Of a stretch of 64,000 nt of DNA, positions 57,644-57,817 are shown one piece after another (positions within the stretch are counted from its first letter, which is position 1; each line of letters opens with the position of its first letter). Source of the stretch: Filosporella fistucella (Eukaryota > Ascomycota > Leotiomycetes > Helotiales). The notes beneath the pieces were generated by a model that was not told the origin of the DNA, ran no database searches, and saw only the letters and a program-made list of their open reading frames with translations. Location of the stretch: assembly GCA_030077755.1 (NCBI GenBank), contig JAQJZZ010000005.1, forward strand, positions 186,001 through 250,000, read 5' to 3'. The position numbers were made by a program, and so were the translations under genes.

Positions 57644-57681
57644 GTCTTCGTGGCTCAGTTGGTTAGAGCGTTGGTCTCATA

Positions 57682-57719
57682 TGATAAATATGAAAAGACT
57701 GGAAACAGTCTTTGATCCA
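57682..57719 (+). other. Canonical tRNA intron (after position 37)
   Basis: 38 nt. It contains a perfect 8-bp stem (57694-57701 with 57706-57713) closed by a GAAA tetraloop. The 3' boundary is ambiguous by a 5-nt shift because ATCCA is repeated at 57715-57724. Confidence 0.75.
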
Positions 57720-57728
57720 ATCCAAAGG

Positions 57729-57777
57729 GTAAGCAAAAATTGTGGAGCATTTAAGGAGTTTGCTAACATTCAAATAG
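57729..57777 (+). other. Spliceosomal-type intron in the tRNA variable loop
   Basis: 49 nt starting GTAAGC and ending AAATAG, with TGCTAAC at 57761-57767 placing the branch A 11 nt before the acceptor end. It splits G46 from U47 of the tRNA. Size and signals match the mRNA introns of neighbouring genes. The junction G is ambiguous within the GGG at 57727-57729. Confidence 0.65.
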
Positions 57778-57809
57778 TCGAGAGTTCGAGTCTCTCCGAG
57801 GACATCAAG

Positions 57810-57817
57810 TTTTTTTT
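57810..57817 (+). terminator. Pol III T-tract terminator
   Basis: Eight T residues six bases after the discriminator base of the tRNA-Met gene. Confidence 0.75.

Follow-up and report, generated by a model that had tools for sequence, protein, structure and literature searches.

Background

Can a tRNA gene whose variable loop is split by an mRNA-type intron still yield a tRNA? The question is raised by an elongator tRNA-Met(CAU) gene of the ascomycete Filosporella fistucella (Leotiomycetes, Helotiales), which lies in a 64,000-nt stretch of contig JAQJZZ010000005.1 (hereafter the window). An earlier note, made from the letters of the window, described a tRNA intron at the usual site 37/38 and a further insert with mRNA-intron signals, and offered two readings: that two machineries process the tRNA, or that an insertion has disabled the gene. 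A protein encoded in the same window, a phosphopantothenate-cysteine ligase by its relatives, is 90% identical to its counterpart in Mollisia scopiformis, 85% in Cudoniella acicularis, 84% in Leptodontidium sp. and 81% in Botrytis aclada; Mollisia and Cudoniella belong to the Leotiomycetes, Helotiales.

According to an excerpt of PMC5832005, U3 and U6 were, as of 2017, the only ones known to be often interrupted, and the U6 genes of some fungi have introns, in agreement with the earlier note's mention of spliceosomal introns in fungal U6 snRNA. Spliceosomal introns of lichens are removed by yeast from Pol I rRNA transcripts (PMC8527467, excerpt). The earlier note also held that nuclear tRNA introns are normally confined to 37/38; this needs qualifying, since unicellular algae have others (PMC3978253, in the part available), though those are of the bulge-helix-bulge (BHB) type. 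Among the matches listed from the open-access literature, a body that leaves aside preprints and most subscription papers, no title or abstract opening concerned spliceosomal introns in tRNA genes. We know of no report of such introns in tRNA genes.

Methods

The assembly searched comprised 45.77 Mb in 19 contigs. Loci were gathered by a tRNA model search and by B-box-plus-T-run searches of the genome. The model search listed 61 places. Twelve of these cluster at about 7-18.5 kb of contig C8, which was taken as the mitochondrial genome. From a B-box search requiring TTTT (96 rows, several per place), all places new to the catalogue were taken in. Another B-box-plus-T-run search (36 rows) contributed 6 new places with tRNA-like 3' ends, and about 20 were left out. 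Among the matches listed in one such search were copies of a GGTTCGAAGCCC-type repeat, which were likewise left out along with a small number of further places. This dispersed repeat (GGTTCGAAGCCC...TGTTTT; on C1, C2 and C7) starts like a B box and has a T-run close by; it is possibly tRNA-derived.

Each locus was scored both intact and after one GT-AG deletion by a simple cloverleaf function, using a score and threshold devised for this analysis. The threshold of 29 points was reached by 77 of the 98 loci and missed by 21. The approximately 80 nuclear tRNA genes referred to here are those 77, the Gly-CCC locus L126 (one of the 21 below threshold) and two elongator tRNA-Met genes handled separately. 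The catalogue is incomplete, with Tyr for example missing, and counts of insert-bearing genes are lower bounds.

Several further tRNA-like units were noted. L058 (C14:2021380-2021538), L115 (two units, C6) and L140 (C14) have long, odd inserts after the D arm and a 5' part reading GG(A/G)G(C/T)TATA(G/T)CTTAATGGTAAAGC, with two pairs close together; they could represent tRNAs in decay, a repeat that arose from a tRNA, or an additional tRNA family. L059, L060 and L065 (C7, C11 and C15) are three similar units with inserts of about 60 nt and scores of 17.5-26.5. L155 (C1:329345-329600, minus strand) is tRNA-like, with an anticodon loop of seemingly 8 nt (ATCCGTCT between CTCGG and CCGAG). An anticodon-arm scan of viral contigs gave 5 places and no fungal tRNA.

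Results

The window gene and its two inserts

Direct reading of the window bore out both inserts, the 38-nt intron at 37/38 and the variable-loop insert of the form GTAAGC..TGCTAAC..AAATAG, as well as the T8 run, whose role as a Pol III terminator is presumed (Table 1). ARAGORN agreed with the earlier note that deleting both inserts leaves a complete 74-nt tRNA, which it named tRNA-Met(CAT). Unspliced, the gene scored 17.1 bits against the Rfam tRNA model, for which the gathering score is 29. Across the whole window, no tRNA was reported by Rfam at the gathering threshold or by ARAGORN in bacterial mode, and Rfam matched no group I or group II intron there. Inserts of 48-54 nt are far below the size of either intron class.

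Table 1. Features of the elongator tRNA-Met gene (positions in the window) and insert sites of the other tRNA genes outside the Met families
Feature	Position	Strand	Basis or comparison
Whole elongator tRNA-Met(CAU) gene before splicing, both inserts included	57644..57804	+	Direct reading; ARAGORN on spliced sequence
Exon 1: 5' strand of the acceptor, D arm with the A box region, anticodon arm as far as nt 37	57644..57681	+	
38-nt tRNA intron at the usual site 37/38	57682..57719	+	Direct reading, ARAGORN; 33 nt in the C13 paralogue
Exon 2: nt 38-46	57720..57728	+	
49-nt spliceosomal-type intron at 46/47	57729..57777	+	Direct reading; 50 nt in the C13 paralogue
Donor GTAAGC of the 46/47 insert	57729-57734	+	
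CTAAC, presumed branch site, starting 15 nt before the intron end	57763..57767	+	
Acceptor TAG of the 46/47 insert	57775-57777	+	
Exon 3: from nt 47 through the discriminator base, with T arm (B box) and 3' strand of the acceptor	57778..57804	+	
T8 run, presumed Pol III terminator	57810..57817	+	
Lys-CUU L061 and L062, insert at 8/9			L042, L043 intronless
Arg-ACG L063, insert at 13/14			L021, L032 intronless
Arg-CCG L122, insert at 13/14			
Gly-GCC L141, insert at 12/13			L053, L132, L142, L143 intronless
Gly-CCC L126, insert in T stem			
Val-CAC L134, insert in D loop			
Asp-GUC L064, insert at 64/65, T stem 3' strand			L123 intronless
Ser-UGA L066, insert at 25/26			

Every tRNA-Met gene found carries an insert

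The earlier note had proposed counting the other tRNA-Met(CAU) genes. BLAST of the window locus against the genome found one other place, on contig C13: a second elongator gene, with inserts at the same two sites. ARAGORN called Met for both genes once their introns were out. Their tRNA parts differ only at two acceptor pairs, each altered on both strands (2-71, T-A versus A-T; 6-67, C-G versus T-A), and their 46/47 inserts have GTAAG, CTAAC and TAG in common and little else. This is the pattern expected where the product and the splice signals are maintained and the intron drifts. The 22-nt stretch from D arm to anticodon occurred, with up to 3 mismatches, only at these two loci, and BLAST with the spliced tRNA as query returned the two elongator genes and one tRNA-Ile; by the mismatch search and BLAST, no intronless elongator gene was found in the assembly.

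The initiator genes are alike in this respect. The pattern GGGCTCATAACCC occurred at 5 places in the genome (its reversal at 3), three of which hold initiator tRNA-Met genes, whereas the other two hold no tRNA. All three initiator genes found have a D-loop insert, of 52, 52 and 53 nt, and read GGCGCAGTGG/GTAAGY..YTAAY..CAG/AAGCGC, the slashes marking the insert borders. The exact string GGCGCAGTGGGTAAG was present only at these three loci, and searches with GGGCTCATAACCC and GGCGCAGTGGGTAAG revealed no intronless initiator gene in the assembly.

Inserts in further tRNA families

Spliceosomal-type inserts were present in 14 of the approximately 80 nuclear tRNA genes examined, at eight positions (elongator Met 2, initiator Met 3, Lys 2, Arg 2, Gly 2, Val 1, Asp 1, Ser 1). 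The earlier note had proposed a search for other tRNAs with GTAAG...CTAAC...AG inserts; besides the two elongator genes there are 12 more with inserts of this kind, and the phenomenon is wider than first noted. Spliced Arg-ACG L063 is identical to its intronless sister L032 at 72 of 72 nt, and the exon parts of the Gly-GCC and both Lys genes likewise match intronless sisters. In Gly-CCC the insert splits the B box, and by direct reading its last letters rebuild GGTTCGATTCC. The gain in score from deletion was small for Ser-UGA (31.0 versus 29.5), where the undeleted fit gives the wrong anticodon.

By ARAGORN and by cloverleaf scoring, removal of the introns restores the cloverleaf. With any 37/38 intron retained, ARAGORN named 10 of the 14 spliced genes as expected and misread both elongator and both Lys genes. 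An unsupervised scan tried every 35-65 nt deletion in 10 of the 14 genes. In 9 of them a GT-AG cut held or shared the best score, which was reached by 1 to 22 different products per gene. In Gly-CCC and Asp-GUC, whose inserts split a stem, only one product attained the best score, and it was the GT-AG one. The expected cut of the window gene fell outside the top-scoring deletions because its 37/38 intron offers false anticodon stems.

Splice signals of the inserts

All 14 inserts are 48-54 nt long. Their donors all read GTNNGY (GTAAGT 7, GTAAGC 4, GTCAGT 1, GTACGT 1, GTTCGT 1), the last three being variants of a GTRNGY-like 5' splice site. Every insert has a YTAAY branch site starting 13-16 nt from its end, and the acceptors divide equally between TAG and CAG (7 each). 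These lengths and branch distances resemble those of intron-like places elsewhere in the genome: among 68 such places the median length was 50 and the branch distance 13-15 in 47, the 68 being a subset of about 100 rows listed, not matched to gene models, from which two tRNA inserts, the longer of duplicate rows and some further ones were dropped without a fixed rule. The intron-like pattern occurred 1166 times in the genome versus 614 for the reversed control.

We rejected splice signals alone as proof, the generic intron pattern not being enriched in the window (4 matches, the 46/47 insert being one, versus 0-5 in ten simulations and 8 on reversed strands). A combined tRNA-plus-intron pattern was not enriched in the genome either (79 places versus 106 reversed); when its list was read by eye, only the two elongator genes were judged to be tRNAs, and the resemblance of one candidate, C1:609574, to a tRNA disappeared once it was read with its flanks. 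Shuffling the inserts recreated a GTAAG start, an AG end and CTAAC after position 20 in 4 of 1,000,000 trials for the window and in 0 of 1,000,000 for C13. Stronger evidence than the signals alone comes from the C13 elongator gene, which has inserts at both sites, and from the 12 further genes.

The only similarity among inserts was one 14-nt match, between Ser and one of the initiators (E 0.022), and the 14 therefore give no sign, in their sequences, of a recently multiplied element. T-runs were not significantly depleted in the tRNA inserts (1 of 14 versus 17 of 68, p 0.13); the Val insert contains TTTT.

Pol III signals

T-runs of 4-13 lie within 60 nt downstream of 11 of the 14 insert-bearing genes; one of the 11, Arg-CCG, was itself selected by a TTTT pattern. 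For the remaining 3 the retrieved stretch ends early, and they too were found by a pattern demanding TTTT. A TATA-like motif at -60..-25 precedes 8 of the 14 insert-bearing and 29 of 66 intronless genes, versus 3 of 50 control stretches, and probably serves this fungus as an upstream element of Pol III promoters. By the pattern used, none precedes either elongator gene. Such upstream elements may explain how the genes tolerate an insert within the A box.

Discussion

We consider it very likely that the 49-nt insert is a short spliceosomal intron, with GT-AG ends and a CTAAC branch site, in a working Pol III tRNA gene, and that at least 14 genes of the genome are of this kind. Judging from sequence, a working tRNA from the insert-bearing genes probably needs the mRNA splicing machinery. 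For the window gene we propose that Pol III transcribes through both introns to the T-run, that the spliceosome would excise the 49-nt intron and so restore the variable loop, that tRNA splicing endonuclease and ligase would remove the 37/38 intron, and that end processing would then give elongator tRNA-Met; the order of these steps is likewise part of the proposal. Between the options left by the earlier note, the evidence strongly favours two machineries over a disabled gene: both elongator genes have the insert, 12 further tRNA genes are alike, and exons and pairings are kept while the insert drifts.

That the insertions left dead or decaying copies is accordingly a reading to which we give very little credence. 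Arg-ACG, Lys-CUU, Gly-GCC and an Asp gene do have intronless paralogues, and single copies in these families could be dispensable. Against this, the assembly yielded no intronless Met gene, elongator or initiator, and because no alternative gene was found, dead copies are nearly excluded for the Met families. The exons are moreover intact, to the point of full identity with a sister in Arg-ACG, the splice signals are kept in 14 of 14 inserts while the remaining insert sequence diverges, and the acceptor-stem changes between the two elongator genes are compensated. It is just as improbable that the GT-AG look is incidental and that tRNA endonuclease cuts these inserts at a BHB motif, as it does the non-canonical tRNA introns of algae and archaea. 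Unicellular algae do have ectopic BHB introns in their nuclear tRNA genes (PMC3978253, excerpt); here, BHB pairing at 46/47 of the two elongator genes was equalled by 87% and 50% of shuffles, in a weak test that credits even the 37/38 introns with no more than 9 and 7 of 12 pairs, and mRNA donor, branch and acceptor signals are present in 14 of 14 inserts at a tight branch distance.

A further alternative accepts the spliceosome and changes the polymerase: Pol II, or longer Pol II transcripts, would read the genes, and no Pol III transcript would meet the spliceosome. Spliceosomes normally serve Pol II transcripts (PMC8527467, excerpt), and the inserts at 8/9, 12/13 and 13/14 split the A box. 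We nonetheless regard this as unlikely, given the T-runs soon after 11 genes and TATA-like motifs about as frequent as before intronless genes and far above controls.

Transcription by Pol III and removal of the inserts by the spliceosome, the reading we prefer, has partial precedents. Fungal U6 snRNA and U3 snoRNA also have short mRNA-type introns in small structured RNAs; in the excerpt of PMC5832005, U3 introns are common in Pezizomycotina and U6 is a Pol III product. Unlike U3 and U6, the present cases are tRNA genes, in several families and at several sites, also within stems and promoter boxes. Ectopic spliceosomal introns similarly interrupt a stable non-Pol II RNA, the product of nuclear rDNA, in lichen fungi among other ascomycetes (PMC8527467, excerpt), although there the product is rRNA and the polymerase Pol I, whereas the genes here are tRNA genes and presumably read by Pol III. 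tRNA genes of unicellular algae, nucleomorphs and archaea can have introns at sites other than 37/38, at times two or more in one gene (PMC3978253, PMC8450103, excerpts), and a variable-loop tRNA intron of Thermofilum pendens appears in the reference list of PMC3978253. These ectopic introns are cut by tRNA endonuclease at a BHB motif, in contrast to the mRNA splice signals found here, where BHB is unsupported in a weak test. The window gene also has a canonical 37/38 nuclear tRNA intron, from which the 46/47 insert differs in position, sequence signals and presumed machinery.

Such genes are overlooked by tRNA finders, and a default search would report this genome as having no Met tRNAs. The non-canonical intron search of tRNAscan-SE 2.0 is described for archaea in the excerpt of PMC8450103.

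Conclusions

We consider it likely that start-codon reading and internal Met decoding in this lineage are spliceosome-dependent, given an intron in every initiator and elongator tRNA-Met gene found, that tRNA genes are a regular target of intron gain, at no fewer than eight sites including stems and Pol III promoter boxes, and that Pol III pre-tRNAs are regular substrates of the spliceosome. The genome offers clear-cut pairs of genes, one with and one without an intron, in a 72-nt frame in which each base can be assessed, and therefore intron gain, Pol II-free splicing and intron-split Pol III promoters become directly testable. If this reading is true, the usual division of labour, spliceosome for mRNA and tRNA endonuclease for tRNA, is crossed, and translation itself would depend on pre-mRNA splicing.
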